Source: Candidatus Roizmanbacteria bacterium (GTDB taxonomy: Bacteria; Patescibacteriota; Microgenomatia; UBA1406; GWC2-37-13). Taken from it: DNA of 64,000 bases. The notes beneath the pieces are model-generated. The model saw only the letters and a list, made by a program, of their open reading frames with translations. It was not told the DNA's origin and ran no database searches. Within the stretch, counting starts at the first letter, position 1. The number at the start of each line of letters is the position of its first letter. Positions 44,591 through 62,735 of the stretch are shown here, in pieces. The translations under genes were made by a program, and so were the position numbers. Location: NCBI GenBank assembly GCA_013335175.1, contig JAAXWC010000002.1, forward strand, positions 62,001 through 126,000. Reading direction: 5' to 3'.

Positions 44591-44600
44591 ATCTTTTCGC

Positions 44601-44638
44601 AAAAAAAATCCCGCTGCCTCTTCGTTTATTTGCGGGAT
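44601..44638 (-). terminator. Terminator hairpin in the UMP kinase leader (candidate attenuator)
   Basis: On the minus strand ATCCCGC (44638-44632) pairs with GCGGGAT (44614-44608) over a 17-base loop, followed directly by a T7-8 run, 11 bases before the start codon. The next gene upstream diverges, so the only transcript to terminate is that of the UMP kinase gene itself. Confidence 0.6.
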
Positions 44639-44718: not shown

Positions 44719-45597
44719 ATGAGAAGATCCCGAATAACCATTACCCTTCGGCAAAAAACGGTAGAACAGGTGGATCTGTTAATAGACCATAAACAAATTC
44801 GTAATCGTTCTCATGCTATCGAGTACATTTTGGACAACTATCTTCAGGGAAAAGTTCATAAAGCAATTATATTAGCAGGTGGACAAGGAACGCATCTGCG
44901 TCCATATACCTATGAGGTTCCAAAACCCCTTCTTCCTGTACAAGGAAAACCTCTCTTAGAACATCTGATTGAACAGTTAAAAAAAAGTGAAATTACTGAA
45001 ATTATTCTTTGCATCGGGTATTTAGGTGAAAAGATTAAAGATTATTTTGGCGACGGTAGTAAATGGGGAATTCACATTGTGTATCTGGAAGAAAAAGAGC
45101 CACTATTTACTGGAGGAGCTGTGAAACAAGCACAAGCACTCGTCCACGATGCACCCTTTCTTATCATTCACGGAGACATTCTGACTACGCTCTCGTTTCA
45201 GGATCTGATTGATTTTCATATCAAAGAACATGCCGTAGCAACTATCGCACTCTCTCCTACCTCACACCCGGGAGAGTACGGACAATTCAAACTGCAAGGG
45301 ACAAAACTGCTCGATTTTTATCAAAAATCAGATGCTAAGGACGTAAAAAGTCTGCTTGTTCACACCGGGATTTATGTCTGCGAACCTGAACTATTTCAGT
45401 ATTTTCCCAAAACGAGCGATACATTTTTATTGGAAGACATCATAACTAAAATCATCGATCAAAAAAAAGGAAACGGATTCATGTTTGAAGGACAGTGGTT
45501 TGATGTCGGAAGTACAGAAAACTACGAAAAGGCAATTAAGGAGTTTAAAACAAGCCCTTCCCCAGACCAAAAATCATCGAAACTAAAGAAACAATAA
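44719..45597 (+). CDS. Ribbon-helix-helix domain fused to a sugar nucleotidyltransferase
   Basis: A 292-residue fusion. Residues about 1-45 look like a ribbon-helix-helix DNA-binding domain (SRITITLRQKTVEQVDLL, then NRSHAIEYILDNYL). Residues about 47-280 are an NTP-transferase domain of the RmlA/GlmU/GDP-mannose-pyrophosphorylase type: LAGGQGTHLRPYTYEVPKPL, GEKIKDYFGDGSKWG, TGGAVKQA, HGDILT and WFDVGSTENY. His replaces the usual Arg in the GTRLRP loop. The enzyme part would make a nucleotide sugar, and the N-terminus may bind DNA, perhaps its own promoter (inference). The 3' end overlaps the converging pilin gene by 53 bases. Confidence 0.85.
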   Translation: MRRSRITITLRQKTVEQVDLLIDHKQIRNRSHAIEYILDNYLQGKVHKAIILAGGQGTHLRPYTYEVPKPLLPVQGKPLLEHLIEQLKKSEITEIILCIGYLGEKIKDYFGDGSKWGIHIVYLEEKEPLFTGGAVKQAQALVHDAPFLIIHGDILTTLSFQDLIDFHIKEHAVATIALSPTSHPGEYGQFKLQGTKLLDFYQKSDAKDVKSLLVHTGIYVCEPELFQYFPKTSDTFLLEDIITKIIDQKKGNGFMFEGQWFDVGSTENYEKAIKEFKTSPSPDQKSSKLKKQ

Positions 45598-45871
45598 CAT
45601 AGGAGACAATCAATAGTATAAACCCAATCAGCCCTGTTGTGATTTTTGCCTTCGCTGACTTCACTTTTTCCGGATTTCCTTGAGACATCATAAAGTTATA
45701 CCCTCCCCATATAAGGACTAAAAGAAGAATAATGGCAGCAAATGGAATCATAAAATTGGTAATTGCACTTATGATATCGGCTAAACTAGGATTTTTATTT
45801 CCGTTAATATTGAGAGGACCAGATATTCGCTGATTATTAATCGTGAATTGTTGGGCAAGAAGGTTATGCAT
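45545..45871 (-). CDS. VirB2/TrbC-like pilin subunit
   Basis: A 108-residue protein with two hydrophobic helices (about 43-62 and 77-100) joined by a short cytoplasmic loop GNPEKVKSAKAK. This is the hallmark of VirB2/TrbC-like T4SS pilins and their CPR relatives, preceded by an outside N-terminal stretch. It overlaps the M50-like gene by 8 bases and the converging nucleotidyltransferase gene by 53 bases. The same N-P-E-K-x-K-K/S-A loop appears in a larger protein at 56948-57832, so the island encodes two pilin-like proteins. Confidence 0.75.
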   Translation of the reverse strand: MHNLLAQQFTINNQRISGPLNINGNKNPSLADIISAITNFMIPFAAIILLLVLIWGGYNFMMSQGNPEKVKSAKAKITTGLIGFILLIVSYVIVSLVSMIFGLGKGLF

Positions 45872-46538
45872 ATTTAAAAACTTTTCGTAACAGTACTAAT
45901 AATAAAATGAGTCCACTGTGAATGCAAATGGTAAAAAACATGTATCCGTTAATTGAGCTAAAAAACTGCACGATATCGGCAATAATCGTATATTTTGTGT
46001 TCACGAAAGAAAATATATTGATGTTAAAAATATAGAGTATCGCTCCAATGACTAAAACCAATGGAATCATAAAAACTGCATCCACTAAATCTTGCTTTGA
46101 AGAAAACATAGACGTTGAAATGCTAAAAATAAGAAAAATGAGTACGGCATTGATGGCAATATTGGGCTGCGGGAATATGTGAAAATAGGAAATAATCCAC
46201 AAAAAAAATAATCCGCCAAAAACCGGAGCAATACCAACAATAAAACCACTGATTACATCTCGTTTTTCGTACAATACCCTTCCCAGTTTAATTCCTTTAT
46301 CTTCCCATTGAGGCAAAATGGTAATATCACGAACACGCATGACAAGCGCAATCGCCATAAAAAAGTGGCTAATTTCGTGGATAAGCGTTCCGGGAAGAAA
46401 TAACAAAGAAATGAGGACGAAAACAAGCTTTTCGCTTTTGAATATCCAACGGAGCGAAAAAAATAATTCCCGAATTGAAACCCGAGAAAGAAAATACAGA
46501 ATTATAAGCTGCAAAAAAAAGAGGAGAACCGATATCAT
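45864..46538 (-). CDS. M50-like membrane metalloprotease
   Basis: A 224-residue protein with about six hydrophobic helices. HEISH (residues 54-58), inside the second helix, is a zinc-binding HExxH as in site-2-type (M50) proteases; the expected distal Asp motif is less clear (candidates are in the 145-155 region with QDLVDAVF). It may process membrane anchors or signal peptides of neighbouring pilin-like proteins (inference), since it overlaps the pilin gene by 8 bases. A member with lost catalysis cannot be excluded. Confidence 0.65.
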   Translation of the reverse strand: MISVLLFFLQLIILYFLSRVSIRELFFSLRWIFKSEKLVFVLISLLFLPGTLIHEISHFFMAIALVMRVRDITILPQWEDKGIKLGRVLYEKRDVISGFIVGIAPVFGGLFFLWIISYFHIFPQPNIAINAVLIFLIFSISTSMFSSKQDLVDAVFMIPLVLVIGAILYIFNINIFSFVNTKYTIIADIVQFFSSINGYMFFTICIHSGLILLLVLLRKVFKYA

Positions 46539-46544
46539 GCAGTA

Positions 46545-46553
46545 ATTGTAACA
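46545..46553 (-). promoter_or_regulatory. Extended -10 promoter of the M50-like/pilin pair
   Basis: TGTTACAAT on the minus strand: TGn plus TACAAT, 6 bases before the ATG at 46538. Confidence 0.45.
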
Positions 46554-46577
46554 GAAATTGGAGCATGATTCCTTATG

Positions 46578-49500
46578 CTACTCTGCTTTTTGCAATTCTG
46601 TGCCATCTCCTTGTTCGGGAGGCTGAACTACCGGAGGCTGGGCCGTTGGGGAAGGTTCCGTAGCCGGCGGTTCCGATGGAACGGGTTCTGGTTTTGCGGC
46701 CTTTGGGACCGTGTTTTCTCGAACTTTTGAAGAAATACACTTTGGACAGATCGTGGTAGCATGAGCATTAACCTCTGTTTTAAATACACTGTGACATGCA
46801 GTACACACAAACTCTTTCTGCGCTTGTTGAGCTGCTTCTTCGGGCGAAACAAGTTCTACCGTTTCTACGTTGAAAACAAAACTTTCACCATCAAAATCAA
46901 CCTGTACGGTATCGCCCGGTTTTAATTTACCATCAATAATTAGCGTAGAAATTGGATTTTCGACCAATTTTTGGATCGCTCTGCGTAAAGGTCGTGCTCC
47001 AAAGAGAGGATCAAATCCGGCTCGTGCTATCTCTTTTATTGCGGCGTCTGTATAGGCAAATCCCATTTCCTGGTCTTCCAACAACTTCCCTACCCCCTTC
47101 ATTTGAAGGGCAACGATTTTTGTCATATGCTCAAAACGAAGCGGTTCAAATACAATCACTTCATCAAATCGGTTAATCAGTTCTGGACGGAAGAACTTTC
47201 GCAGTTCACCCATGAGCTTCTCTTTTAATCCGGCATACTGTGTGCTTGCCGATTCTGATTCGATAGAATTATGTTCTGCTAATTCCTGTTCCAAGGGGAA
47301 ATCTGCACCAAAGTACTCTCCCAATGCAGTTTTTTTCCACTCTTTCGAATCCTTTTCCCGTGTCCAGATAAACTCACCAACGACAATAATTTCTTTTCCT
47401 TGCGGAGAAAATGCATGAATATCCCAGTACTCAGTAGGAAATTTTCCCTCTGCACTATTTTGCTCTTTAAAATAATCAGCCAATGTTCCCGTTTCCCACT
47501 CATTTACCGACTCATTCCGTCGCCAGAATCTGTCTTCGTAGGTAATTATTTCCTGTTTCTCAGGACTAAAGGCATGCGTTTTCCAGGAAATAGTGGGCAA
47601 CTGTTCCTGGGGAGCATCTGCGGTAGCATTGGTAACCGTATTATCTTTTGTGTAATCAATAAGAGAAAGCGATTTCCAGGTTTTCCCGGTCGTCGAGGCC
47701 TTGATAAGCACCAAATCCCCTTTGGAAATAATCTCAACTCCGTCTGCAGAAATGGCATGCGTATCAAATCCTTGAATAGGGAATGCTTGCTCTGTTTCGG
47801 GATCTCCCTCTTTACGAGGCGCATCTTCAAATTTTTGACCAGCAAAATAATCCAACAACATATTCTGGTGCCAGCTCCTATCGGTTGCACTTTCATCTCG
47901 TTCAAAATATTTTGCACCAATCGAGAGTATCTCTCTACCGCGGGGTGAGAATGTATAGGTAGAAAGTATCGGAGGTATTTTTATATCAGTCTTTCCTTCT
48001 TTTATCAGTTCATCTTGAATCAATTGACTCCCCAAATTAGAGGTACAAATAATGACAGTGTTTTTAAAAGAAATTACGTGTCCTTTATTGTCTGTCAGAC
48101 GACCATCATCCAGTATTTGAAGTAGGATGTTAAAAATATCCGGATGAGCTTTTTCGACCTCGTCAAAAAGAACCACGGAATACGGTTTTCTTCGCACAGC
48201 TTCGGTAAGTTTACCACCCTCTTCATATCCAACATATCCCGGAGGTGCGCCCAGCAATTTTGCAACTTCGTGTTTTTCCATGTACTCCGTCATATCAAAT
48301 CGGATCATTGCTTCTTCCTGTCCAAACAGCACATCTGCTAAGGTTTTTGCTAGTTCTGTCTTTCCAACACCGGTTGGCCCCGCAAAGATAAAGCTCCCGA
48401 TAGGACGACCTGCCGACTTAAGGCCTGCCCGTCCCCGCTTTACCGCCTCAGCAACTGAGGTAACAGCCACATCCTGACCGATAAGCCGCTTATGCATAAT
48501 CTCCTCCAAATGAGCTAGTTTCTCTGTTTCCGAACCACTAATTTTGGCGACCGGAATACCGGTCCACCGAGCGACTATATCCTTAATGATAGGTTCGGAA
48601 ATTTCAGTGGTCGTTTGTGCTTTTTTTGTGTTGAAGGCCTCTCGTTTTTCGTTCAACTCTGCTCCAATATCATCAAGTTTTGATCGTGTTATCCGTGCCT
48701 TCACTCGATCTCCCGTTTTATCCGATTCCACTGCCTCTTGTTTCAATTGAGCGATACGATCTTCGAGAGACTTAATTTCCTCGGGGAGTGATAATAAAGG
48801 CAACCGAACTGCCGATGCGGCTTCATCGATAAGATCTACTGCTTTATCGGGAAGGAATCTATCCCCAACATAGCGTTTGGATAATTTTACAGATGCTTCG
48901 ATTACGGCATCGGGAATTTTTACTTTATGAAATGCTTCGTATTTGTCGCGAAGCGCTTTTACCATTTTAATAGCTTGTTCTTCTGTTGGCTCCGGGACTA
49001 CTACTTGCTGAAATCTTCGTTCCAACGCCGGATCTTTTTCAATATATTTACGATACTCGGTAATGGTTGTTGCTCCAATGAGCTGCATTTCCCCACGAGC
49101 AAGGGCTGGTTTTAAGAAATTAGAAGCATCCAAAGCTCCATCCCCAGAGGCTCCCGCACCAACTATGGTATGAATTTCATCAATAAAAAGAATAACCTTC
49201 CCCTGAGAAGATTTTACCTCCTCGATAAGATTTTTCATTCGTTCTTCAAACTCACCCCGATGAGAAGCTCCCGCAAGAGTACTCATAAGATCTAGCTGAA
49301 GAATTCGTTTGTCGAGAAGAGATTCAGGGACCTGTTTTGAAATAATTTTAAAGGCTAAACCCTCTACAATAGCCGTTTTCCCAACTCCCGGTTCTCCAAC
49401 AAGAGCCGGATTATTTTTTGTTCTCCGAGAAAGGATATGAATAACTCGTTCAATTACTTCAGAACGTTCAACCACTGGATCAAGTTGCCCGGATGCCGCC

Positions 49501-50429
49501 TTCGCAGTAAGGTCTATCGTAAACTGTTCAAGCATACTTTTTTGCTTTTCTTTCTGTTGCTGATCTTCTGTTAATCCTTCTTTTTTGCCGATAATTTTCT
49601 TATTTAAATCTTCTTTTTTTAACCCCAATTTGGTAAGCACCCGAGCAGCAACTCCTTCGCCTTCATCAAACAACGCCAATAAAAGATGTTCCGGTGAAAT
49701 AAACTCAAAGCCAATCTTCCGCGCTATAACAAGCGAATTATCAACAACGAGTTTTACCCGGGGAGACATTTGGGGAACACCCTTATAATTACTGCGGCGA
49801 TACAGTTTTATGAGCTCTTCTTCTACGGTTTGCGGCTGAATTTTTTGTTCTGTGAATAGTTTATAAATTTCTCCATCAGAAAGCAGCCCGTGAAGAATAT
49901 GCTCTGTATCTACATAATTGCTTTGCAGCTCTTTTGCTTTCGTATTCGCCGAAAGAAAAACCCGATTTGAACGCTGCGTAAGATGCGTCATAACGTCTAA
50001 ATCTGATCGTTTCTGATTATTTAGGGTTGAAGTAAGTGCAGGCGCACCTCCCGACGAAGGAGTCGTTTTTACTTCGTGAGGAGTCCCTTTGAGCGATTCA
50101 AGAGTTTTTGATTCATCTTTCGACGTACTCTCTTCTATCTTTTGTTTATCATTATTTTGTGGTGAAGAAATAGGCGTTAGTTGTGCAGGTTGAACCACAG
50201 ATGGGACCGATCCTGTTACCTGAGTTGGGGTTGGTGTTTGAAAAACTCCTGAGGTAGTCTGTGGCTGGGGCACCGTAATTGGCGTCGGCTCTGATATGAG
50301 AACCTGTTGTTCATTTACGGATGAACTTTGTGTGGATGTATCCGGGATTGATTGGGGAATAGAAGCCTGAGGAACATTTGTCGTTGCATTTGGTGGAGTT
50401 TTTTTTATAAAATCAAATATGCCTGCCAT
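46578..50429 (-). CDS. clpC: ClpC/ClpB-type AAA+ unfoldase with a four-repeat insertion in the second ATPase domain
   Basis: A 1283-residue HSP100 protein. Residues about 1-125 are low-complexity (Pro/Thr/Gln/Ser). A ClpN-like double repeat follows (about 130-280). AAA-1 has [15 protein letters not shown] and a Lys/Glu helical middle region. AAA-2 has [30 protein letters not shown] and TSNLGS, then an insertion of about 250 residues (about 815-1070) before the arginine-finger region [14 protein letters not shown]. The insertion holds four copies of a 40-residue unit (consensus HAFSP-x-G-x-EII ... DYF). A zinc ribbon (VCTACHS, CPKC) and a Pro-rich tail end the protein. The ATG at 50429 is supported by a promoter 6 bases upstream. 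Confidence 0.9.
47230..48000 (-). repeat. Protein-level repeat array inside clpC
   Basis: Four imperfect repeats lie near 47845-47965, 47650-47772, 47468-47590 and 47310-47430, about 55-62 codons apart. Examples are [39 protein letters not shown] and [13 protein letters not shown], each ending about 30 residues later in a DYF/DYT/EYF-like triplet. Confidence 0.8.
50384..50411 (+). promoter_or_regulatory. Promoter of the CHAP-domain gene, inside clpC
   Basis: TTGCAT (50384-50389), 16-base spacer, TATAAA (50406-50411); the ATG at 50419 follows after 7 bases. It lies within the first codons of clpC on the other strand. Confidence 0.45.
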
Positions 50430-52359
50430 GGAATCATTATGGAGAACTGCTAACAATTTGTCAATTCGGTATAAAAAAAGCTATGCTTTTGGATTGTTGC
50501 TGAGCCTCATTTCATTATTTTTTCTTATAACATCCCCCGTACAAGCGCAAACCAGTTGTGCAAAAATAAACAGTGTTTCTGTGAGTACCAGCGAAGTTGA
50601 ATCCGGGAAAATGTTTAACTGCACCGTAGCAGTGGACAAAGCATCGGTTGCTACCTCTCAGAGCTCCATTGCGTGCGGGATTCGATTTGACGGTGGATGG
50701 CCCCTTGACTTTTGTCCTTCTACCTCGGATACGTTTGGTGGGTGGGATGCGCAGGGGAATGCAGTTTTTCACTGTGTTATTCCCGACACGAATATCTCTG
50801 CGAAAAAAGTGGAAGCCGTCGGGTATGATTTTCAGTCGGAATGCGGCCCTAGCACGGGTGCAACAACGGAAATTAAACTAAAAGTGACTGATACAAAGGA
50901 ACAACCGACATCGGTCGATACACAGCTAGACAAAGTAAAAACTCTTTTACGCGCCTTACTCGGCACTGATAGTCCTTTGAATGGGGGTAGTTATTCAAAT
51001 TCTGCCGCTTCGTACCCGAATGCAACCTATGATGCCGTCGGCCCTGCATGCTATACAGAGTCCGGTGCTCTTCCTCCCATGAAAGCCCCTAATTATGCGG
51101 CACTTGGCCTTCCGCAACCGGTAACTTCCGGTACAAATGGAGTCGATGCACTGATAAAACAGATTACAGCAAATGCCAGAGCTGTCTGGACGATTAATGA
51201 ACTTCTATCTGCGGAAAAAACAGTTCTCTCAAAAGATCCTGGCTTACTTCAAAATCCGTACCTCATTACCGCGTGGCTTTGGTTTGAAAACGGTGCTTCT
51301 GCATATCCTGATATATATGAAATAAACTGTAATGATACCGATTCCCTTTCTCAAGTTTCAGTTATGTGTAATTCGACCAATTTTCAAATTGCAGGATATC
51401 AGGTCTCAGGTCATAAAACTCAATTCTTAAGTTATTATAATAAGTACTTTGCTGCAAGCCAACTTCCCGGTGTATTGCAAAAAGTGATTGATAATAGTAC
51501 GGCTGCATCCCGTCCACAGTGGAGTTATCTCAATGCCGACCAAAAAAAGGGGCTATTGAAATATCTCCAGGGAGGATCCGGTGTTCCTAACAGCCTCAGC
51601 ATAAACGATATCTCTTCGGGAAATGATCTCCTTTCGGATGAACGAAAGCAATTCTTTACCCTCATTTTAGGAAAAAATCCATTAATGGTCGTATTATTAA
51701 ATAGCACGACGGTAAATGGGCTCGCCGATTCGCTCAAGGCAGGCGGCACTATTTATGGGTATATCGGTGAATCGCAAAAGCAGCTTATTTCGAATATGCT
51801 CCAAGCGTTATATAAATACGATAGCATCATAAATTTTGTAAACACGGGATTACAAGTCTTGAAAGATATAAATGCCGCATTGGTAGTGCAAAGAATCCAG
51901 CAACAATGTACCCAAGCAGGCAATGCCGGGCGCGTAACAGCAAATAACTCAGGATGTGTCGATGGAACAATTAGTAGTTCGCTTGCCGTTTCCAAATGGA
52001 AACAGTCGGCAAATGACTATTTCTATCTTCAGTGCGTAGGTTTTGTATATGGTATGGAAGGTGCAGTTGGAGGTAAAAATATGTACTGTTCAGGGAACGC
52101 AAAAGATTTTTTATCAACCTGTCCCGCAACTGGCCAGTACATAACAATACAAAACACCGGCTCAACGAGCACTATGAAAGTAGGAGATGCAGTGGTATGG
52201 ACCGGAGGAACGTGGGGACATATTGCTTTTGTTTCAAAAATTTATGATAGTAAGACATTTCAAGTAGCAGAGGCCAATTATGACGGGGCAGGTTCGGTTC
52301 GTATTTCAAATGTTACGGTAGACAGTCCAGGTCTCGGAGGCTGGCTCCGCTCAAAATAA
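50419..52359 (+). CDS. Secreted CHAP-domain peptidoglycan hydrolase
   Basis: A 646-residue exported protein. A signal/anchor helix (about 22-42) is followed by an Ig-like Cys-rich domain (about 45-155) that is clearly similar to one in the protein at 53098. A long helical middle (about 220-500) leads to a C-terminal CHAP amidase/endopeptidase domain: Cys539 in [25 protein letters not shown] with His601, and [12 protein letters not shown] enzymes cut peptide bonds in the cell wall. It starts an operon with Ig-like, SLT and membrane proteins, so it may open the wall for a T4SS-like machine. ATG 50428 is an alternative start. Confidence 0.82.
50436..50464 (-). promoter_or_regulatory. Promoter of clpC, inside the CHAP gene
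   Basis: On the minus strand TTGACA (50464-50459), 17-base spacer, CATAAT (50441-50436), then 6 bases to the ATG at 50429. It lies within the start of the divergent CHAP gene. A leaderless clpC mRNA is predicted. Confidence 0.6.
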
Positions 52360-52363
52360 TACT

Positions 52364-53095
52364 ATGAATAAAAGAAAACTTATCTATTTACTGATCGGTG
52401 TTATCTTTGTAGGTTTGATGATTTTAGGAGTGATCTTAAAGAATCAGCCAAAGAAAGAGGCGAACCCTTCCCCAACTCCTATACCGAGTATTGCCCCGCA
52501 GGGAAATCTAAACACCATGAATGATCCCAATCGTCTTCAATTCGTTTCCTCTGTTCCCGAACAAAGCGCACCTCAGGTTGCGACGACTCTCGGGAACATT
52601 ACATTAACTTTTAATAAAGCCATTTCTTTGAAAGATATTTCGATTAAATTGATACCGACAGTATCTTTTGTTCCGGAATCAAACGGGAACGATATCACAC
52701 TCGTTCTCAAACAGCCGCTCCGTGCAAGCACTTTGTATACAGTGGATATTGATTTTACCGATCCAAAGTTATTTCCACGAACACTCTCGTTTACTACCGT
52801 TGGTCCTACGCCAACTATCGCTCCTGACACCAGTTCGTTAGAAGTAGTCAAGCAACGCAACCAGTCAGAACTAAAAAAACACCCCGACGTATTTCTATCT
52901 AATAATACGCCCCATGATGAAGGAGATTTCTCCATTACTTCAGATTTTACCGCTAAACCAGAAGGTCATTTCGTTTTTACCGTAACTTTGAAGAATGCCG
53001 ACAAACAAAAAGCGAAGGATAGTCTTGTTGCCTGGTTGAAATCGTTAGGATTAACAAAGGTAGATTTAATCTCATTAGATATTATCTATAAATAA
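52364..53095 (+). CDS. Membrane-anchored Ig-like domain protein
   Basis: A 243-residue protein with an N-terminal hydrophobic helix (about 7-25), a Pro-rich linker (PSPTPIPS), a beta-sandwich resembling SbsA-type/Big_5 Ig-like domains (about 55-150: VSSVPEQSAPQ, ITLTFNKAIS, LRASTLYTVDID), a second linker (PTPTIAPD) and a C-terminal alpha/beta domain (about 160-243). It probably sits on the outer face of the membrane as a structural or docking part. It starts 4 bases after the CHAP gene and ends 2 bases before the SLT gene. Confidence 0.7.
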   Translation: MNKRKLIYLLIGVIFVGLMILGVILKNQPKKEANPSPTPIPSIAPQGNLNTMNDPNRLQFVSSVPEQSAPQVATTLGNITLTFNKAISLKDISIKLIPTVSFVPESNGNDITLVLKQPLRASTLYTVDIDFTDPKLFPRTLSFTTVGPTPTIAPDTSSLEVVKQRNQSELKKHPDVFLSNNTPHDEGDFSITSDFTAKPEGHFVFTVTLKNADKQKAKDSLVAWLKSLGLTKVDLISLDIIYK

Positions 53096-53097
53096 AT

Positions 53098-54318
53098 ATG
53101 AAGCCCATCTGTTTTTTATTTTCGACAACATTTCTGTTTATGGCCTTTTTTATCTGGTTGAATCCGGTTCATGCAGCGATCGATGATTGTGCACAAATTC
53201 AAAGTGTATCCATTTCACCATCTACTATTGAAACGGGAAAAGACCTTACCTGCAATGTGGTAGTAGATTCTGAGCATGCAGGCTCACGAAGTATTACCTG
53301 TGGCATTGCTTACGACGACAAATGGCCAGAGAGCATCTGTCCCGACACATCCGCATTTCGTACGTGGAACGGTAGTACTGCTTCGTTTGCCTGTACCTTT
53401 CTGAATGTCTACCCCGATGCAAAAAAAACACTGATCTCTGCGTACGATTTTCGGAGTAATTGTGGACCTAGTACCGGAAAGACCATACCTGTTTCAATAA
53501 CGGTAAATGATATTGATAAAAAAGTAGATACAAACTCGCGAGATGAACGCATTGAAAAAGTAAAAAAACTTCTCGAAGCACTCATTGGAGAAAATGGCCC
53601 GTTATCTGCTGCTACTTTGGAAAATGCACTATCCGAACTTCCTACAAGTACGGCAAGTGCTTGTTACTATGCTCCGACTGGCAATCTTTCTATTAATGCG
53701 GTTACCGCTGTTGCTGATATTCTCAAAATTACTCCATCGGCATCAGCGCTTAGTCATAAATCAGACGTAAAGGACTGCTCAGCGAACAGAGCTATTTACG
53801 ATCAGGCATCTCAAGCAACAGGCGTTCCATGGCAAATATTAGCCGGAATCCATTATCGCGAAGGAAACTGCGGGTCAAATTCTTCATTGGTGAGCGGCAC
53901 AACAATTGGACAAATTGAATCAGACGTACCAAGCTGCTCTACACAGGATGCTGGTTCGGGAAAACCTATTCCCATCGGGAATGGGTGTGGATTTAAATCG
54001 CTCCTCGACAGCGCGATTTATGCAGGGAATATATTAAAACAAAAAATTGGTGGTGTTCCAAAAACACTCGCTGAACTCATGAAGGCACTCAGTTTGTATA
54101 ACGGTGGAGGTAATTCAAATTGTGGAGAAGATACTGCCTATGCAGGAACCTGCCCTCCGGCAAATGTTGGAGACGATGATACCTATGTGATGAATTACTT
54201 TGACTCAAAACATATACCAATGTATATTATATTTTGTGGAAATAACTCCAAGTGTAACCCTCCAAAAATAGATGGACGCATCGGAGTATTAACAGCCATA
54301 CAGCTCATTGCTCAATAA
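53098..54318 (+). CDS. Secreted lytic-transglycosylase-like protein
   Basis: A 406-residue exported protein: signal peptide (about 1-27, ending VHAAI), then an N-terminal Ig-like Cys-rich domain (about 30-140) similar to that of the CHAP protein, a helix (about 145-165), and a lysozyme/SLT-like domain (about 220-406). The catalytic Glu is probably Glu255 in ILAGIHYREGNCG, followed by SLYNGGGN and a long tail. These enzymes cleave the glycan strand of peptidoglycan, as VirB1 does for T4SS. Pairing with a CHAP peptidase of the same N-terminal domain suggests that both are recruited to the same place. Confidence 0.8.
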   Translation: MKPICFLFSTTFLFMAFFIWLNPVHAAIDDCAQIQSVSISPSTIETGKDLTCNVVVDSEHAGSRSITCGIAYDDKWPESICPDTSAFRTWNGSTASFACTFLNVYPDAKKTLISAYDFRSNCGPSTGKTIPVSITVNDIDKKVDTNSRDERIEKVKKLLEALIGENGPLSAATLENALSELPTSTASACYYAPTGNLSINAVTAVADILKITPSASALSHKSDVKDCSANRAIYDQASQATGVPWQILAGIHYREGNCGSNSSLVSGTTIGQIESDVPSCSTQDAGSGKPIPIGNGCGFKSLLDSAIYAGNILKQKIGGVPKTLAELMKALSLYNGGGNSNCGEDTAYAGTCPPANVGDDDTYVMNYFDSKHIPMYIIFCGNNSKCNPPKIDGRIGVLTAIQLIAQ

Positions 54319-54325
54319 TTTACCT

Positions 54326-54907
54326 ATGAATATCTCATTTCAAAAAAAATACCTGGTGATGGGCACAGTTGCATTCATCCTTATTCTTGTTTCTCTTGTG
54401 CTTATATTAAATCGTCAGAAGAAAAAAACGACACAACAACAAGTTTCATCCTACATTACCCCTACAAAAAAGCCCTACGATCCCAGTGAGCCACTCCCCG
54501 ATTCAAAAACAATCAAACAGATTCCCACACTTGCCCCGCAACAAGGCGCTGGAGTAGATATTCAATCTGCTCCCGCAGAGGCGTCAAAGCAAGAGCTAAA
54601 AAAAATTCGGCCATTTCTTCCCTTTTCAAAAGAGGTGAAGGTTTCCGATACTATTACTGCCTCAATTTTGATTCCTTCTGCCGATTTGCAAACGAACCAA
54701 TGGTCACTGAATGTAGACATTTCCGGCATAAACTACCGTGTAGCCAATGGGACACCTGAGTACACCACCATGAGAAATGCTTTCCGCATTGCCGCAGATG
54801 AAGTTTTTTACTTCCTAAAAAGCAATGGTGTTGATACCACAAAACTTGCTATTACCTGGGGTAGTCGAAAATTTATTCAAGATAGGGCCTTAGAATGGCT
54901 TAAATAA
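54326..54907 (+). CDS. Membrane-anchored protein of unknown function
   Basis: A 193-residue protein with one N-terminal hydrophobic helix (about 8-30), a Pro-rich disordered linker (about 45-85) and a C-terminal alpha/beta domain (about 105-193). It resembles the 52364 protein in overall design, but I see no strong sequence match. A single-pass anchor with a small outside domain is reminiscent of VirB8/VirB10-type scaffold parts, though not assignable. It starts 7 bases after the SLT gene. Confidence 0.6.
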   Translation: MNISFQKKYLVMGTVAFILILVSLVLILNRQKKKTTQQQVSSYITPTKKPYDPSEPLPDSKTIKQIPTLAPQQGAGVDIQSAPAEASKQELKKIRPFLPFSKEVKVSDTITASILIPSADLQTNQWSLNVDISGINYRVANGTPEYTTMRNAFRIAADEVFYFLKSNGVDTTKLAITWGSRKFIQDRALEWLK

Positions 54908-54924
54908 TAAATAAAAAAACAAGT

Positions 54925-54954
54925 TTGACACCACATTACTAGATCAGATACAAT
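54925..54954 (+). promoter_or_regulatory. Promoter of the VirB6-like gene
   Basis: TTGACA (54925-54930), 18-base spacer, TACAAT (54949-54954), then 7 bases to the ATG at 54962. Confidence 0.6.
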
Positions 54955-54961
54955 AAAACCA

Positions 54962-56680
54962 ATGTTTCAATTACTAAAAAAAGTTTTTTCTGCAGCATAC
55001 AAATTCTCAACAGTTTTTGTATTTGTTATATTGATAATGTATATATTTAGCTTGGTAGCTTTTAAAAGTACCCCTTCTCAATCTAATGACGTAGCAAATC
55101 AAGATAAATTTGAAATTTACAATTATTTAAATAACATTAGCAAAACGGGGAATCAACAAACAAAAATTATTGCCGTTATATATAGAGGAGCTAATTGCTC
55201 ACTTATAGGACAATATTGTTCCAATAACCCAGATGATGAAACAAAAAATTATTCTGCTAGTTTATTCGGTAGTGTTGCAAATATCATAAGTGCACCACTC
55301 TCGCAACCTCCTGCTTCCGGGATATACTGGGTTTATAACAATTTAGAAAATAATGGATTTGTACCCAACACCATGGCATATGAGGGAACTGGCTTTGCTG
55401 CTATTAAAGGTTTCCTAAACTTGTGGCTTTTATTTAGAAACTTTGCATTTTTAGTATTGGTTATCATAATCGTAATTATTGGTTTTATGATCATGTTTCG
55501 CATGAAGCTTAACCCACAAACGGTTATTTCCGTAGAAAACGCGTTGCCAAGAATTGTTATTACTATGCTCCTCATCACTTTTTCCTTCGCAATCGCAGGT
55601 TTCTTAATTGATCTCATGTACTCCTTCATTGGTATTGTTATTTATATCCTCTCCCAAGCAAATATTGGAGAGTTGAAACCAACAAATTTATTAGATTGGG
55701 AAAATAGATATATCGCTGCTCAATTTGGAGAGTTATGGCCATATAAATCAGAATCATCGGCATTTAGCACAGGCTTTGCACTTGTAAACGTTCTTCCTAT
55801 GGCTATACAAGCGCCTGTTCGAGGAGTCGTTAGTTACATAGTTACAAGCGCGATGAATCAACTCGTTTTTCGACCTTTTATAAAAGGCATGCTTAGCCCA
55901 CTAGATAATTTAGGATTACAAGCATTTACCTTTGGAATTAATCTTGGCGGACTTCCTAGTTATGGGGTGTTAGTTCTCGATATCATCATATTTTTTGCTA
56001 TGACGGGCTATGCCCCAGGGCTTCTGTTAGGAATAATAATTTTATTTACCTTATTATTTCTTATGTTTAAGATTTTTTTCATGCTGATTACCTCCTATAT
56101 TAAAATCATTCTTTTTATTATTTTTTCTCCAGTTATATTATTATTTGGAGCAATCCCCGGGAAAAACGTGTTTGGTTTTTGGTTTAGAGGATTATTTGCA
56201 GAACTTATATCTTTTCCTTTGGTAATAATAATCATGATGGTTGGATATGCTATTGTCGAAGTAAGTAAAGCAAAGACAAGTGCGTTTGTTTTGCCTTTTC
56301 TTTATGGATTTAACTCTTCTGATTTTGGTGTCATTATTGGACTTGGGCTCATATTAGTAATACCTCAAGTTATTGGATTAGCCAAGCAATTGCTCGGAGT
56401 GAAAGAACTTGGACTAGATGTCGGAGTGGGGACATTCTTAGGTGGAGGCGCAGCAGCTTTAGCTGGTGGAGGCGCAATTCTAAAAGCACCTGCTCTCCTA
56501 CATTCATTACCTTTGAACTGGCAACATGCACTTAGAACAAAAGGACCATTGCAAGGGATCATGAAGAACATCCTGCCTCCTGAACAGTCCGAATTGAACA
56601 AGAGCCTAGCACAGAATATTGCTATTGGAATGGGGGTAGGGACTAAGGAAGCCTCTGATAGAGGGAAATTAATGAAATAA
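54962..56680 (+). CDS. VirB6/TrbL-like polytopic membrane protein
   Basis: A 572-residue protein with an N-terminal helix (about 15-37), a large outside loop (about 38-140) with two Cys, then at least seven hydrophobic helices (about 150-490), and a Gly/Ala-rich segment (GGGAAALAGGGA) before a charged cytoplasmic tail. This layout matches VirB6/TrbL-like T4SS channel components, common in CPR genomes. It has its own promoter and lies between muralytic and pilin-like genes, which supports a role in an envelope-spanning complex. Sequence identity to classical VirB6 is expected to be low. Confidence 0.65.
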   Translation: MFQLLKKVFSAAYKFSTVFVFVILIMYIFSLVAFKSTPSQSNDVANQDKFEIYNYLNNISKTGNQQTKIIAVIYRGANCSLIGQYCSNNPDDETKNYSASLFGSVANIISAPLSQPPASGIYWVYNNLENNGFVPNTMAYEGTGFAAIKGFLNLWLLFRNFAFLVLVIIIVIIGFMIMFRMKLNPQTVISVENALPRIVITMLLITFSFAIAGFLIDLMYSFIGIVIYILSQANIGELKPTNLLDWENRYIAAQFGELWPYKSESSAFSTGFALVNVLPMAIQAPVRGVVSYIVTSAMNQLVFRPFIKGMLSPLDNLGLQAFTFGINLGGLPSYGVLVLDIIIFFAMTGYAPGLLLGIIILFTLLFLMFKIFFMLITSYIKIILFIIFSPVILLFGAIPGKNVFGFWFRGLFAELISFPLVIIIMMVGYAIVEVSKAKTSAFVLPFLYGFNSSDFGVIIGLGLILVIPQVIGLAKQLLGVKELGLDVGVGTFLGGGAAALAGGGAILKAPALLHSLPLNWQHALRTKGPLQGIMKNILPPEQSELNKSLAQNIAIGMGVGTKEASDRGKLMK

Positions 56681-56947
56681 TACACACGAGGATATCTTAT
56701 CACGATTAATTTTGTCTCTGGCACAGAAATAGCTATTACGTTTTGGTATCATCCTCAACAAGGCCCGATCAAGGTGGACACCCACCATAGAATATGAATC
56801 TATCTATACTCTATAGATATTGTGCTTCTCCAAATCATACGCTACTATATTAGTTGACCTCCGATTTATCTCTATTTCAAATAGAATAAAATAACAGAGA
56901 AGTACTATTTATCTACTTGTATTGTATTGGTATAAGGATATTGCCCG
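56681..56947. other. Intergenic region between converging genes
   Basis: This 267-base AT-rich gap contains two simple hairpins: GGTGG-ACAC-CCACC (56773-56786) and TATCTATA-CTC-TATAGATA (56801-56819). Neither is followed by a T tract. No gene is seen. Confidence 0.5.
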
Positions 56948-57832
56948 TTATTTACTGAAACCTGGAAGCATCAAGATGTCATACCCTATAAGACGGAGAA
57001 TGAATATCGAAAAGATTATAAGAAGTAAACCAATAATACAAGAGGTAAGAACCTCTTGTGCTTTTTTAATTTTTTCTGGATTGGCACGAGAAGTTTGCAT
57101 TGTAAAAGCAGCATAAATGATACATAAAGATGCAACGGCACCACCAAAACCAATTCCCATTCCTAGCAAATTCTTCTCTATAAAGCCAGATAATTGAAAA
57201 TCTACACATCCAACTGCCGTCCATATTCCGCCCGAATTTTGAGCAGAATTAGACCCACCTAATGCTCCAACACATGTGAGGCATTCATTTCGTTCTGAAT
57301 TGTTTTTAATGGGTGTACAAAGAGCTGCTAACTTTTGTCTTGCTTGTTCTACACAAGTACAATTTACTGAATAATCGCTTGCATTTGAAGGAGCACTTCC
57401 ATCTGTACAAGCGACACCTGGTAAATCTACCGTACCGCTTGTGATCGTACCAATCAACGGATTAAGTATCGCATCTCGTGCGGCACCAAATATAAGGCTA
57501 ACAAATCCTGAGACCACCCCGCAGAGAGGCTTGATAACTGCCTCAGCAATTTTCCCTGCTCCACCAGTCACAACATCTACCACTGTTCCTACAACTCCAC
57601 TACCTCCACCACCAAGATCAATTTTATCAGGACATTGAAATGGCGGCTGCTCTAATTTAAGTCCATGGCAACATGCATGATTTAAAGTACCGCATTTAAG
57701 TTGTTGCACTTGTCCATTAATGTCATAGGTACTTGAGGTCTGGGCATTCACAAAAGAGATGGGGAAAAAAACAAAGAATACGAAAAAGAAAATAATTGAA
57801 AGGAAATACAAAAGTACCTTTTTTTTGTCCAT
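56948..57832 (-). CDS. Secreted Cys-rich protein with a C-terminal VirB2-like domain
   Basis: A 294-residue protein: a signal peptide (about 5-30, ending FVNAQT), a Cys-rich outside part (about 31-205) including LKCGTLNHACCHG and two hydrophobic Gly-rich patches, then two hydrophobic helices (about 215-235 and 262-285) joined by RANPEKIKKAQEV. That loop matches the NPEKVKSAKAK loop of the VirB2-like pilin at 45545. It looks like a pilin with a large added ectodomain. The ATG at 57832 gives a clean signal peptide and follows a TATAGT by 6 bases; ATG 57847 and TTG 57859 are alternatives. Confidence 0.65.
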   Translation of the reverse strand: MDKKKVLLYFLSIIFFFVFFVFFPISFVNAQTSSTYDINGQVQQLKCGTLNHACCHGLKLEQPPFQCPDKIDLGGGGSGVVGTVVDVVTGGAGKIAEAVIKPLCGVVSGFVSLIFGAARDAILNPLIGTITSGTVDLPGVACTDGSAPSNASDYSVNCTCVEQARQKLAALCTPIKNNSERNECLTCVGALGGSNSAQNSGGIWTAVGCVDFQLSGFIEKNLLGMGIGFGGAVASLCIIYAAFTMQTSRANPEKIKKAQEVLTSCIIGLLLIIFSIFILRLIGYDILMLPGFSK

Positions 57833-57838
57833 ATTATT

Positions 57839-57844
57839 ACTATA
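57839..57844 (-). promoter_or_regulatory. Possible -10 element of the Cys-rich pilin-like gene
   Basis: TATAGT on the minus strand, 6 bases before the ATG at 57832. No -35; the gene may also be read from the upstream 1259-residue gene. Confidence 0.3.
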
Positions 57845-57861
57845 CATTATTTTGACCAATG

Positions 57862-60800
57862 TTATCTATGTTTATTCTTCGATGATGCTCTCCGTATAAA
57901 CTCTGCAAGCAACAAAAGCATGCCTATTGTCATTATGTTTGGCCCATACTGCATAATTAACAATTTTTGCCAATCTGCACCTAAGTTCCTTTTTAGCCAT
58001 TTATCATTAAACCGTTCCTGTTTAAAATCATCACCAATAAAATGCATTTCTGTAAGTTCATTAATATAATCTGCTATATCGTTTTCATTCCATGTCCAGC
58101 CTCCATGAATATTATAGCTTGATAGCGATTTGAAACGACCCAAATAAGAACCATAAACTAAATTCAATGGGAAAGGCGCACGTGCTAAATGATGTTCCTG
58201 AAAGAATCGAGACGTAACCGATGTTAAAATATAGTTCAATTTTTGAGCCTGCTCGATACCAACAATTCCTCTTACCTCATGAATGGCTGCATGCAATTCT
58301 ATTAAGGGTTTCCTATCTTTTGTTATTGCTACCTGATGCAAAATTTCATCAAAACTACACAGTTTATCGGTTACCTTATTCCAAGCAGCAAGATCGCCCC
58401 AAAGACGACTAAATACTGCTTCACCGTCAGAAGCGATCTTATCCAAAAACGGCGCAGTCTTTACCTCATTAAAGTTGGGAAGAATTTCTCCTATCTGAGT
58501 TCGCCAGTTTTCGACTGCTTTCACAAAAAAGTTGTGTTCATCGCCTAATTCTTTCCCTTTGCCAATAGCGAATGCTTCTTCTAACCTGCCATTGGCGAAC
58601 ATACCTCTAAAATGGGTGACCATTCCTTGTGTCCCGTACAACATATCCCAATATGCCTGGCCAAGTTTATCAGTATCCCCTGGCCGAGTAAAAATCTCGT
58701 CCATGCTCCGAGCATCTTTCAAAACAACTCGCTGTGTTTCCGTCGTCATCCGATTAAAAAACATATTCCAGTTTTTTTTATCTGTATTTGCAGAATTGAG
58801 TCGTTGTCCGTTTTCACCCGTATAATACACATTATGCATAAGCTCAGTTATTTTTTCTATGTGGTGCATGCCATGTTCGCCCCAATGCTGTAATAACTGA
58901 TTCCGTAAATTCTCTCTATCCTTTTGTTGTGCCTGATTAAGATTAGTACGAGCTGGAGGATGAAATAAAAATTCGTACATACTTATATCCCGAACTGTGC
59001 CATCGACAGACGCCTTCACCGTATCCAACAGTTTTGGTTCCAGTTGTAAAATATTCGTAAGAAAGCTGTTCGGAGATCGTTCAAGTATAGAGTACATAGT
59101 ACGGCCATGATATACATTCGTTTTTTTCTCTAAAAACTCAGTTATTGTTAGTTTTTCACCGTGTACTTTAACATACCGATCTTTCGTATCGGTTTGGGAT
59201 GAATCAAAATATGCCGGAGGCTCTTTTTTTAAATCAGCCTGTTTTGCTGCAATTTCAGCAGCAGTCCAACGAGTTTTATAATCAGAGCCCCACAATCCTT
59301 GCCAAAACTCATCTTCTGCTCGTGCACCATCCAGATACCAGAGTGCACCCGCTCCTACTTCCTTTCGAATATTTTCATATGATTCTGTCCAGTTTGCGTC
59401 TAAGGTTTTCTTTTGATGCTGTTCTGCATACCATTCTTTAAATGCATCTAAACGCCACCCGCCCCGCGAAAAGAAGCCAGGAAGATTAAACTTTCTGAAT
59501 AAAGTCGAAAGTGTTGCTTCGTCCTTACCGACCGAAGCATTCATAAGATTATCTGTAAACAGATCAACTAAATTGTACTGCGATTCCGCAGCAAAATTAT
59601 TCATATTTTTAAGAAGCTTTATAGGATTCCAGCCTTTAAAAAGCCGTTTCCGTAAAGACTTTTCCTCTTCCATTTTTACTGTTACCTTAAACAGTTCTCG
59701 AAACCGAAAACCAGCATCCGGAGTATCCTGCCCACCGCGACCAGCGCGCCATTTAGCGGCCATGCTAAAGTACTGCGCAAACTCGGAACCAGGGCCCTTT
59801 AAGTGTTTAGAAATATAGGCCATTGCCATTATTTCCTGTCCTCGCAACGTGGTAAACAAAGAGACACCAGGGGCAAGAATAAGGGCTCGAGAAAACTGCC
59901 AATCATTCTCCTCATCCGATATTTCGTCAAGAGCAGCTTTTACTTTTGGATCATATCCCGGATCATTTTTTATTGTTTCTATTCGTTGCCGAACTGCATT
60001 TTTTAGCCGTTTATAGTCTTCTGTCTTCATACGCTCAGTCGGATCAAAATAAGAGGCAAATAAATTGGCGGGAAGTGTATTTCCTTCTGTAAGTATCCGA
60101 TTCTGGAGATCCGTTTCAAACTCTCGTTGCACTAACTGCATAAATATCGGGTTTACTACCTGCATCGCCGAAACTAGTTTTGAAGCCGGAAATTGTTTTG
60201 CAAACTTGGTAATCTCTTCTGGGCCACCCCAACCTCGTTTAAAGAAACGCTGGGCTGTATGATATGCCTGCCGCATATCTACCTCGGAAGCAATCTCACT
60301 TACCACTGTGGTAGAGATAAAATCCTTGAACACTTCTCTTGCGTCTTTGCCCCATCTATCTGTAATTTGTTTAAGAATAACATCGTTATCTTTTAGACTT
60401 AAAATACGATACTGAATCATCTTGGTAACCCTTCCTTCATTTAGAGGATTATATGCCTCTTGCCAATCCATATCCGGATTTGAACTGACATTCTGCAAAA
60501 GTTTATTAATTGTTTTATATGCAGTACCAAGCATCTCCGCTTTTATCTTTTCATTTAGCACAGGTTTATTATCAGGGCCAATAACAAAAAGACTATCATT
60601 TCTAATTTCATCAAGTATTTTCTCGGCGCTTACCTTATCCAAATCAGATTTTTGGATGCTATATCCAGAAATTTCACGTACAAAATATTCATCTACTGCC
60701 ATCATACGCATATATCGTCTATCAAGATCAACAAAAGTGCGGAGATCTCCTTCTGTAAGAAGACCCGGACCTTGCAAATACTGAAAAAGTACATCCCACT

Positions 60801-61641
60801 GAGGTGGCTCAGAAGATAATGCATTATCAATTTCATCTCTTCGTGTCGTTCGTGCCGCTTCGTCTGTAATACCATTTAAATGAGCCTTGATAGCATTATT
60901 TATTTTTATGCTATTATCTTTATAGACTTCTCTCTCTTTATCACTTAATGGCTGAACCAGGCTTGCTTCTCCCTTCATCTGATAGTTCCAAAATGCGGTC
61001 ACTTCTGCATCACTTATACCAGCATCGCGTGCTGCTGGCCGGATAACATCCATTACCAATTTATAGTGCATGCCTGCATCAATCATCTTAAGCGATTGCA
61101 ATTCCTCATTCGAAAGCGCATGAAGTGGATTGTCTAACGTACCGCTTATGGCTTTATGTACCAGTTTATAGATATACGGAGATTCTAAATACCCAACTTT
61201 TTGTTCTACATTACCCCCGGAAAAAGCCTCTGCAAGCCTTCCGAGCACTTTGCCACCAGCAGAATCAATAGGGACAGGCGAAGCAAAATGAGGACCTTTC
61301 GTAACAATCGCCTTCAAAAACTCCTGTACTACCAATTGAGTAGATACGTACTTATGTTTTGGTTTTCCTTTTTCACCAAACTGCCCTTCGTGAACCCTCA
61401 AATCAGAGTCCTGCGCTCTTCCTTCTCGTTTCGCCTTAGCATGAGTATTCAACTCAAACATTGCTTCATCGGCTGCATCTTGGTTCTCATCGATGAGTTG
61501 TTTTATATCTGATGCATTTGCACCAAAAAAAACCGGAGTCAGCTTTTGACGTGCTGCTGTTTTGCGATTCTCTTCTGCAGTAGTTTGAGGAGCTTGGAAC
61601 TCCGCAGCCTCAGCAATATTGACAATTTCAGCAGGTACCAT
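57862..61641 (-). CDS. Uncharacterised 1259-residue protein with a C-terminal membrane anchor
   Basis: I do not recognise this protein. It has no signal peptide, is rich in Lys, Glu, Asp and aromatic residues, and looks mostly helical throughout, without an ATP-binding loop. Repeated Trp-rich segments occur (for example FWQGLWGSDYKTRW). A single hydrophobic helix near the end (about 1230-1248, GPNIMTIGMLLLLAEF) followed by a basic tail (RRASSKNKHR) suggests a tail-anchored protein with its bulk in the cytoplasm. It sits directly upstream of the Cys-rich pilin-like gene (gap of a few to about 30 bases), so it may be a cytoplasmic scaffold or coupling part of that machine (inference). Confidence 0.75.
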   Translation of the reverse strand: MVPAEIVNIAEAAEFQAPQTTAEENRKTAARQKLTPVFFGANASDIKQLIDENQDAADEAMFELNTHAKAKREGRAQDSDLRVHEGQFGEKGKPKHKYVSTQLVVQEFLKAIVTKGPHFASPVPIDSAGGKVLGRLAEAFSGGNVEQKVGYLESPYIYKLVHKAISGTLDNPLHALSNEELQSLKMIDAGMHYKLVMDVIRPAARDAGISDAEVTAFWNYQMKGEASLVQPLSDKEREVYKDNSIKINNAIKAHLNGITDEAARTTRRDEIDNALSSEPPQWDVLFQYLQGPGLLTEGDLRTFVDLDRRYMRMMAVDEYFVREISGYSIQKSDLDKVSAEKILDEIRNDSLFVIGPDNKPVLNEKIKAEMLGTAYKTINKLLQNVSSNPDMDWQEAYNPLNEGRVTKMIQYRILSLKDNDVILKQITDRWGKDAREVFKDFISTTVVSEIASEVDMRQAYHTAQRFFKRGWGGPEEITKFAKQFPASKLVSAMQVVNPIFMQLVQREFETDLQNRILTEGNTLPANLFASYFDPTERMKTEDYKRLKNAVRQRIETIKNDPGYDPKVKAALDEISDEENDWQFSRALILAPGVSLFTTLRGQEIMAMAYISKHLKGPGSEFAQYFSMAAKWRAGRGGQDTPDAGFRFRELFKVTVKMEEEKSLRKRLFKGWNPIKLLKNMNNFAAESQYNLVDLFTDNLMNASVGKDEATLSTLFRKFNLPGFFSRGGWRLDAFKEWYAEQHQKKTLDANWTESYENIRKEVGAGALWYLDGARAEDEFWQGLWGSDYKTRWTAAEIAAKQADLKKEPPAYFDSSQTDTKDRYVKVHGEKLTITEFLEKKTNVYHGRTMYSILERSPNSFLTNILQLEPKLLDTVKASVDGTVRDISMYEFLFHPPARTNLNQAQQKDRENLRNQLLQHWGEHGMHHIEKITELMHNVYYTGENGQRLNSANTDKKNWNMFFNRMTTETQRVVLKDARSMDEIFTRPGDTDKLGQAYWDMLYGTQGMVTHFRGMFANGRLEEAFAIGKGKELGDEHNFFVKAVENWRTQIGEILPNFNEVKTAPFLDKIASDGEAVFSRLWGDLAAWNKVTDKLCSFDEILHQVAITKDRKPLIELHAAIHEVRGIVGIEQAQKLNYILTSVTSRFFQEHHLARAPFPLNLVYGSYLGRFKSLSSYNIHGGWTWNENDIADYINELTEMHFIGDDFKQERFNDKWLKRNLGADWQKLLIMQYGPNIMTIGMLLLLAEFIRRASSKNKHR

Positions 61642-61647
61642 GGATAT

Positions 61648-61656
61648 ATTTTACCA
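61648..61656 (-). promoter_or_regulatory. Extended -10 promoter of the 1259-residue protein gene
   Basis: TGGTAAAAT on the minus strand, 6 bases before the ATG at 61641. Confidence 0.45.
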
Positions 61657-61689
61657 TACGCACTGTATAAAACTGCAACGGGAAATAAC

Positions 61690-61718
61690 TTGAGTTGCAT
61701 AATAACACATGGTAGTAT
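61690..61718 (+). promoter_or_regulatory. Promoter of the 336-residue protein gene
   Basis: TTGAGT (61690-61695), 17-base spacer, TAGTAT (61713-61718), then 6 bases to the ATG at 61725. Confidence 0.6.
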
Positions 61719-61724
61719 GTAAGT

Positions 61725-62735
61725 ATGCCACTTAGTAGTCCAGATGCACCAACAGTAGTACTTCCGAATAATCCAAATATTCTTCTACAACCTGGACAAC
61801 AAACTATCAATCAAGGAGTAAACAAAGCTCCTTCTCTTCTTCGGCAAAAAATAGTTGATATTACATCTAACATTCTCGGAAATAGAACACAAAGAAAGCA
61901 AACACGAGAAGCATTGAAATCTATAGCTGGATTAATAAAGCCAGGGGAAAAAGAATCGTCAGTTTTTTCACTCATGAATCAGGGTAAAGAAGGGTCAGAT
62001 GAACACTTAGAAGGTAACAAAACAATGGCAGCAAGACTTTTTGACAAAAGTGAACAAGCATTTCAAAAAGCCCGGCAAGAGGTACAAAAAAACCCAAAAG
62101 ACAAGGGAGCAATCCATCGTTATTCTGTAGCTACCGATATGCTTATTGCACTTAAACAATTGCAGGTTGGCAATCAAGAACAAGTTCTTGTTAATTTAAA
62201 TAAACAAGTACAACCAACGACAACCCCAGACAGTGCACCGACGGTAGTCCTTAACCCCACCCCCAATAGTGCCCCAACGGTTGTCTTACCTCCCGCCCCT
62301 TCTCCGGAAATACAGGCAGCCACCACAGCACGAGATGCACTTCAACAGGATATAATAACGCTCAGTACCGAACGAGGGGCAATAAGTAATGAACCTAATA
62401 TTATTCTTGACACAATAAAACAACTTGGGGTCCCCGACGCCGAATTACAAACAAATCCCTTAAATGCCCTCTTCAATCGGATGGGTTACCTTGCCGTTGA
62501 GGTGGAAAATAAAGGATTTAGTCGCGCAGTAAAAGACTATATTGGTAATACACCAAACATGAAAGGCAAAGAACAACGAGCGACAGAGAACGTACTTCGA
62601 GCCTTTTTAGGCGCTGAATCTTATGCAAAAGAAAGAAATGGAAAAATGGCTGGCATGGCCACGAAAGGAAGTATGGTCGTAGGGTTAGGCGTTCTTTTTG
62701 CCATTTTTATGCAAATCCGAAAACGACAGCAATGA
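61725..62735 (+). CDS. Uncharacterised tail-anchored protein with APTVVL motifs
   Basis: A 336-residue protein, not recognised. It has a disordered N-terminus with DAPTVVLP (residues 7-14), a helical segment (about 35-165, TPR-like in places: FDKSEQAFQKARQEV), a Pro-rich linker with two more motifs (SAPTVVL at 170-176 and 182-188), a second helical domain (about 205-310) and a C-terminal hydrophobic helix (about 315-330) with a basic end (RKRQQ). It diverges from the 1259-residue gene and shares its tail-anchored design, so the two may act together. The 3' end overlaps the converging small gene by 51 bases. Confidence 0.7.
   Translation: MPLSSPDAPTVVLPNNPNILLQPGQQTINQGVNKAPSLLRQKIVDITSNILGNRTQRKQTREALKSIAGLIKPGEKESSVFSLMNQGKEGSDEHLEGNKTMAARLFDKSEQAFQKARQEVQKNPKDKGAIHRYSVATDMLIALKQLQVGNQEQVLVNLNKQVQPTTTPDSAPTVVLNPTPNSAPTVVLPPAPSPEIQAATTARDALQQDIITLSTERGAISNEPNIILDTIKQLGVPDAELQTNPLNALFNRMGYLAVEVENKGFSRAVKDYIGNTPNMKGKEQRATENVLRAFLGAESYAKERNGKMAGMATKGSMVVGLGVLFAIFMQIRKRQQ

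Follow-up and report, generated by a model that had tools for sequence, protein, structure and literature searches.

A probable split type IV secretion system of Candidatus Roizmanbacteria, with a giant tail-anchored protein encoded beside its VirB6-like channel

Introduction

An island of genes on the chromosome of an ultrasmall, uncultured patescibacterium very probably encodes one module of a type IV secretion system (T4SS) of monoderm type, comprising its channel, its pilins and the enzymes that open the wall. The module would run from the gene for a CHAP-domain hydrolase to that for a giant protein of 1259 aa, together with the gene for a 108-aa pilin, and its motor module would be that found on another contig, C31; the transfer of a protein or other macromolecule to the host, or attachment to it, would be the likeliest job of such a machine. 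By sequence or fold, the genome contains a membrane protein with a VirB6 fold, pilins of family PF18895, a CHAP hydrolase, a PrgI-VirB4 unit and VirD4-like ATPases. The presence of these parts in one genome bears out the envelope-spanning, T4SS-like machine proposed in the original prediction, in which the observation itself is confirmed and the reading as a whole is partly supported.

Materials and methods

The window, meaning the whole stretch of 64,000 nucleotides that was analysed, corresponds to bases 62001-126000 of contig C37, in a genome of 1.45 Mb and 46 contigs; most of the relatives nearest to it that bear names are Candidatus Roizmanbacteria, of the Microgenomates group. Six-frame searches were made of 96 related genomes, and 286 genomes were drawn from the phylum. 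Loci of the Roizman type (n=44) were compared using counts of testable loci only, alongside loci from other families (n=46, in two sets with some genomes common to both). The window's family is denoted f1 and its sister family f2, while genome G061 represents family f3 of the same order. Every open reading frame (ORF) named in the original prediction is present at the position given there, and those of the island and its immediate neighbours are listed in Table 1.

Table 1. Features of the island and its adjoining genes, with positions in the window
Feature	Length (aa)	Position	Strand	Evidence or remark
T4SS pilin (VirB2-like)	108	45545..45871	-	PF18895 9.1e-10 (over cut-off); NF045849 9.2e-12
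Membrane HExxH protease-like protein	224	45864..46538	-	Adjoining gene, probably outside the machine
ClpC-type AAA+ unfoldase with ~240-aa repeat insert in D2		46578..50456	-	Pfam; adjoining gene, probably outside the machine
Secreted CHAP-domain wall hydrolase, putative VirB1-like role	646	50419..52359	+	CHAP 3.8e-12
Bitopic protein with Big_5 domain		52364..53095	+	Big_5 1.9e-8
Secreted protein with conserved C-terminal lysozyme/SLT-like (unproven) domain	406	53098..54318	+	Invariant Glu in AGIHYxEG
Bitopic protein encoded immediately before virB6	199	54308..54907	+	Family profile 2.5e-33 (profile includes this protein)
VirB6-like channel/platform protein	572	54962..56680	+	Fold and gene context
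Cys-rich domain with C-terminal T4SS-pilin domain	303	56948..57859	-	PF18895 1.7e-4 (ORF search, below cut-off)
Giant tail-anchored helical protein	1259	57862..61641	-	Candidate new T4SS component

Results

The proposed channel protein, of 572 aa, is given no family name by Pfam, NCBIfam or PHROGs, and the VirB6 profile found no matches among PDB sequences. Its fold was modelled with AlphaFold2 on an alignment of 38 homologues (mean pLDDT 76), and the leading matches were all VirB6 proteins. Foldseek placed VirB6 of R388 and DotA of Dot/Icm at the top of its PDB matches, with weak E-values of 0.14-2, while VIA-align 2 gave Z-scores of 10.6, 8.4, 8.1 and 8.1 for DotA and R388 VirB6 and 5.1 for the next, unrelated, protein, although values of 8-10 are within reach of unrelated helical proteins. 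These best matches, to VirB6/TrwI of R388 and to DotA, cover residues ~140-480 at an identity of 10-14%; the Roizmanbacteria protein differs in having an additional N-terminal part, and partners from an outer-membrane complex were not seen. The VirB6-like label of the original prediction is one that the predicted fold and the gene context support and that sequence families do not. Homologues were found in 84 of the 96 relatives by a single-sequence search (85 with a profile), and in 96 of the 286 genomes drawn from the phylum. Outside the Roizmanbacteria lineage they are often encoded beside PrgI, a 218-aa family, VirB4 and pilins, providing a tie to T4SSs that is independent of the fold.

In some relatives, a second and very weak match to the VirB6 profile falls within an ORF of 770-1070 aa (G053:C4:13408, G018:C14:25672, G026:C1:126898, G051:C31:3306 and others); that in G053 is ~4 kb from VirB4.

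Upstream of virB6, Pfam confirmed the CHAP and Ig-like (Big_5) domains named in the original prediction, as it did ClpC. The SLT-like hydrolase fared less simply: conservation of its domain extends to an invariant Glu, but the domain has no match in Pfam, NCBIfam, PHROGs or PDB sequences, and the label is unproven because no library search backs the name. The N-terminal domains of the CHAP and SLT-like proteins are 41% identical, and the C-terminal domain of the Big_5 protein resembles that of the 199-aa protein (up1 profile, 3.4e-11). Relatives encode directly upstream of virB6 a bitopic protein, commonly of ~145-200 aa, in a family that includes the 199-aa protein, for which a VirB8-like role is possible and the place plausible. 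The next slot upstream in relatives is occupied by a secreted or anchored protein, which was Peptidase_C39-like in 15 and CHAP in 3 of 32 scanned sequences that include a few misassigned neighbours (one valS, for example); in the window, the CHAP and SLT-like proteins take this slot. The wall-hydrolase slot is kept, and the enzyme families within it differ. Monoderm VirB1 proteins, such as TraG of pIP501, carry SLT and CHAP domains in one chain (PMC12857230), and the window similarly has a CHAP and a putative SLT-like domain by its channel gene, but on two separate secreted proteins with a common N-terminal domain, and in relatives the enzymes are mostly of the C39 type.

The VirB2-like pilin is recognised as such by its family match, and lies upstream in 19 of the 23 Roizman-type loci that could be tested. 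The Cys-rich, pilin-like protein is a closer call, as PF18895 falls below the cut-off in the ORF search and just over it when whole frames of the genome are searched; its gene is convergent with virB6 in all 43 testable loci among the 44 of Roizman type. Across the genome, PF18895 exceeds the cut-off seven times: twice in the island, once on C31, and twice each on C7 and C8. A second fusion of a Cys-rich domain with a T4SS pilin (L053:9238-9834, on G000:C31; PF18895 1.6e-9) is located ~1.2 kb away from an ORF whose translation reads as dnaA, on the contig that also carries VirB4.

The most constant neighbour of virB6 is the giant protein. Its C-terminal end is a hydrophobic helix, one of which is found in most members of the family, and an N-terminal hydrophobic segment is absent; the bulk of the protein is therefore probably cytoplasmic, although charged residues flank the helix on both sides and do not fix its orientation. 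In 39/39 testable Roizman-type loci, the Cys-rich pilin and virB6 are followed by a protein of 850 aa or more; in other families, virB6 is followed by a convergent ORF of 700 aa or more in 36/39 testable loci, the remaining three having ORFs of 590-621 aa on the opposite strand. Profile-profile comparison connected the Roizman-type with the Gottesmanbacteria-type giants across 755 columns (Prob 98.8; E 4.5e-17, a value that applies to a single comparison), against a Prob of 0.1 for the reversed-sequence control, and the giants of L179, L190 and L194 are also linked by profile. An alignment of all giants proved too coarse (Prob 25), whereas smaller alignments gave Prob 98-99 with reversed controls near 0. 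In six-frame searches, the Roizman giant profile found matches in 62 of 96 genomes; wherever the contigs permit the comparison, the match adjoins VirB6, as it does at the VirB6 loci belonging to G078 and G061. For many single diverged giants of other families, there was no link by profile, and hence only position and size speak for these; large proteins adjoining VirB6 in other classes had no detectable homology to the giant.

Neither Pfam, NCBIfam nor PHROGs names the giant protein, and its profile found nothing usable among PDB sequences, the best match being a designed helical protein. The model of the whole protein (pLDDT 73) likewise had no convincing match among PDB folds, with a best Z-score of 5.1 and no coherent family. 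Of the two large tail-anchored proteins in the original prediction, this one is conserved and has the C-terminal helix, but the other, a 336-aa ORF, has no relatives. As the giant is present beside virB6 across families whose loci lack ClpC and the protease, it belongs to the conserved gene set around virB6, and they do not.

The original prediction had placed the ATPases outside the window, allowed for a diverged or split system, and advised inspecting the genome for virB4 and virD4, all of which was justified by the search. There is one clear VirB4 (C31:36677-38431; PF19044 1.7e-28), a protein detected in 88/96 relatives, and it is preceded by a member of the PrgI/VirB3 family (PF12666 5.1e-8). 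With a 218-aa ORF that also precedes VirB4, in the TrsD position, and which has no Pfam match and is kept with VirB4 across families, these constitute the motor module (C31:35134-38434). Two VirD4/TrwB-like ATPases are encoded away from the island (TrwB_AAD_bind 1.6e-11 on C2 and 5.2e-8 on C45); by their sequences both qualify as coupling proteins, making them candidate partners of this T4SS.

Where both genes are on one contig, virB4 and virB6 are separated by ~2-23 kb in other families of the class (17 genomes), whereas the distance is 62-316 kb in f1 and f2 (seven genomes: G004, G007, G020, G026, G027, G045 and G065). Hence the cluster was split, and as the pair is still 2 kb apart in G061, from f3 of the same order, the simplest reading would place this event in the ancestor of f1 and f2. 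Two near-complete relatives, G089 and G090, gave no VirB4 or VirB6 matches, although co-loss in two genomes, one of which retains PF18895 pilins, is a weak test of whether these form one machine.

Random scattering of the genes in related genomes, which would have told against the original prediction, was looked for, and the genes are not scattered: the arrangement was recovered both in six-frame searches of relatives and in named loci, and is therefore more than chance. However, ClpC, the protease and the 336-aa ORF, which had been counted as members, are not part of it outside the window's lineage. ClpC is present in 26/29 Roizman-type loci and the HExxH protease in 11/23, compared with 0/46 loci elsewhere for each, and both were accordingly rejected as probable machine parts; on this comparative evidence, all three appear to be neighbours of the machine. 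The M50-like reading of the 224-aa protease retains its HExxH motif, found in all aligned homologues, but not a Pfam match. Within the lineage, yidC and jag are found in 30/31 testable Roizman-type loci, and the order from valS-yidC-jag to recF is kept around the island throughout, such that the conserved gene order is in part a frozen housekeeping neighbourhood.

Several further features of these neighbours were observed. The insert in ClpC, at residues ~820-1060 of the protein and within its second AAA+ domain, consists of four similar repeats (..AFSPxGxEI..W.R..W....L.DYF). Such an insert is present in 19 of the 32 members of the family, in which the span compared measures 262-389 aa; most others have only 31-62 aa there. 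The 336-aa ORF (61725-62735) has a C-terminal hydrophobic stretch, receives no name from Pfam, NCBIfam or PHROGs, and was without relatives in all of the loci fetched; it is perhaps specific to the lineage, or perhaps not a gene. Two adjacent ORFs (43259-44602 and 44719-45597) both read as fusions in their translations: the first of amino-acid-kinase-like and methyltransferase-like parts, the second of a sugar-nucleotide transferase preceded by a short stretch that looks DNA-binding-like.

Discussion

These parts can be assembled into a model of the machine. VirB4, held by PrgI, would drive assembly at the VirB6 platform, on which the pilins would be built into a pilus or short conduit, while the CHAP and putative SLT enzymes would open the peptidoglycan. 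The giant, anchored by its helix, might serve on the channel's inner face, as a scaffold or an adaptor. It is probably a new part of the T4SS, to which it is linked by position. A more ambitious proposal, to which we would assign slightly less than an even chance, is that giants of ~1,200 aa are an undescribed core component of T4SSs throughout the class Microgenomatia, forming, beneath the VirB6 channel, a platform in the cytoplasm that has no counterpart in conjugation systems and is needed for the loading or gating of substrates toward the host. No description of such a protein was seen in the available text of PMC12102498 or in a search of open-licence papers.

The genome encodes components of an MPF_FATA-type system, namely VirB4, an adjoining PrgI/VirB3, VirB6, PF18895 pilins, a VirB1-like hydrolase (CHAP) and a coupling protein. 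PMC12102498 describes patescibacterial T4SSs related to MPF_FATA that are similar in their VirB4, PrgI, TrsD-position gene, PF18895 pilins, chromosomal location and lack of a relaxase, with VirB6 scarce in Microgenomatia and PrgI there mostly not next to VirB4. The system in this lineage differs from those in the distance of at least 62 kb between its channel/pilin and VirB4 modules, in having VirB6 where the survey found it scarce, and in its constant giant tail-anchored neighbour. The T4SS of Ca. Southlakia epibionticum (SEML1_0006-0019), which is essential and has no recognised relaxase (PMC10633639), seems alike in its monoderm-type parts and pilins, but forms one cluster rather than two modules. 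By analogy with that system, export or host attachment is probably the job here. The relaxase family PF03432 was not found in this genome, and in only 1/96 relatives; with no relaxase of this family detected, delivery of a protein or other macromolecule to the host cell surface, or attachment there, would be the likeliest function, one already proposed for the Southlakia T4SS.

The frozen gene order could instead mean that the island is an ancient neighbourhood (valS, yidC, jag, recF) of unrelated envelope genes, of which only the VirB6-like and pilin genes are secretory, with the giant serving some other end. Both the order conserved around the island and the confinement of ClpC and the protease to the window's lineage are in keeping with this, but other families hold VirB6, the giant convergent ORF and the pilins together, alongside PrgI/VirB4 and in the absence of yidC, ClpC and the protease, making such an explanation unlikely. 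A little less likely again is an apparatus whose job is DNA import, serving competence or the scavenging of nucleotides, and not protein export. The island contains no DNA-specific element, and in Southlakia it is a comEC system, itself not essential, to which DNA uptake is tied, whereas the T4SS is essential (PMC12857230 and PMC12102498), even though archaea have DNA-importing relatives of T4SSs (PMC12102498), these cells need nucleotides, and the failure to find a PF03432 relaxase is in keeping with import.

Conjugation, one of the functions in the original prediction, is disfavoured. Conjugation systems draw on the families to which the VirB4, PrgI, VirB6 and coupling proteins belong, but in a search confined to PF03432 the relaxase results run against the transfer of a plasmid or integrative element, as does the fixed chromosomal place of the island in the same housekeeping neighbourhood across the family, which is not that of a mobile element; we consider this reading very improbable. 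An exporting or host-attaching T4SS is thus the reading we prefer.

Much of bacterial diversity lies within the Patescibacteria, whose only T4SS to have been studied genetically is required for living on the host. VirB6 had seemed to be missing from most Microgenomatia, yet a VirB6-like protein is now found in nearly all genomes examined; as virB6 is far from virB4 in the Roizmanbacteria lineage, a search centred on virB4 would miss it. That the hydrolase family changes while its slot stays fixed hints that these cells have adapted to differing cell walls, and the constant giant neighbour is a candidate new T4SS part that can be put to the test.
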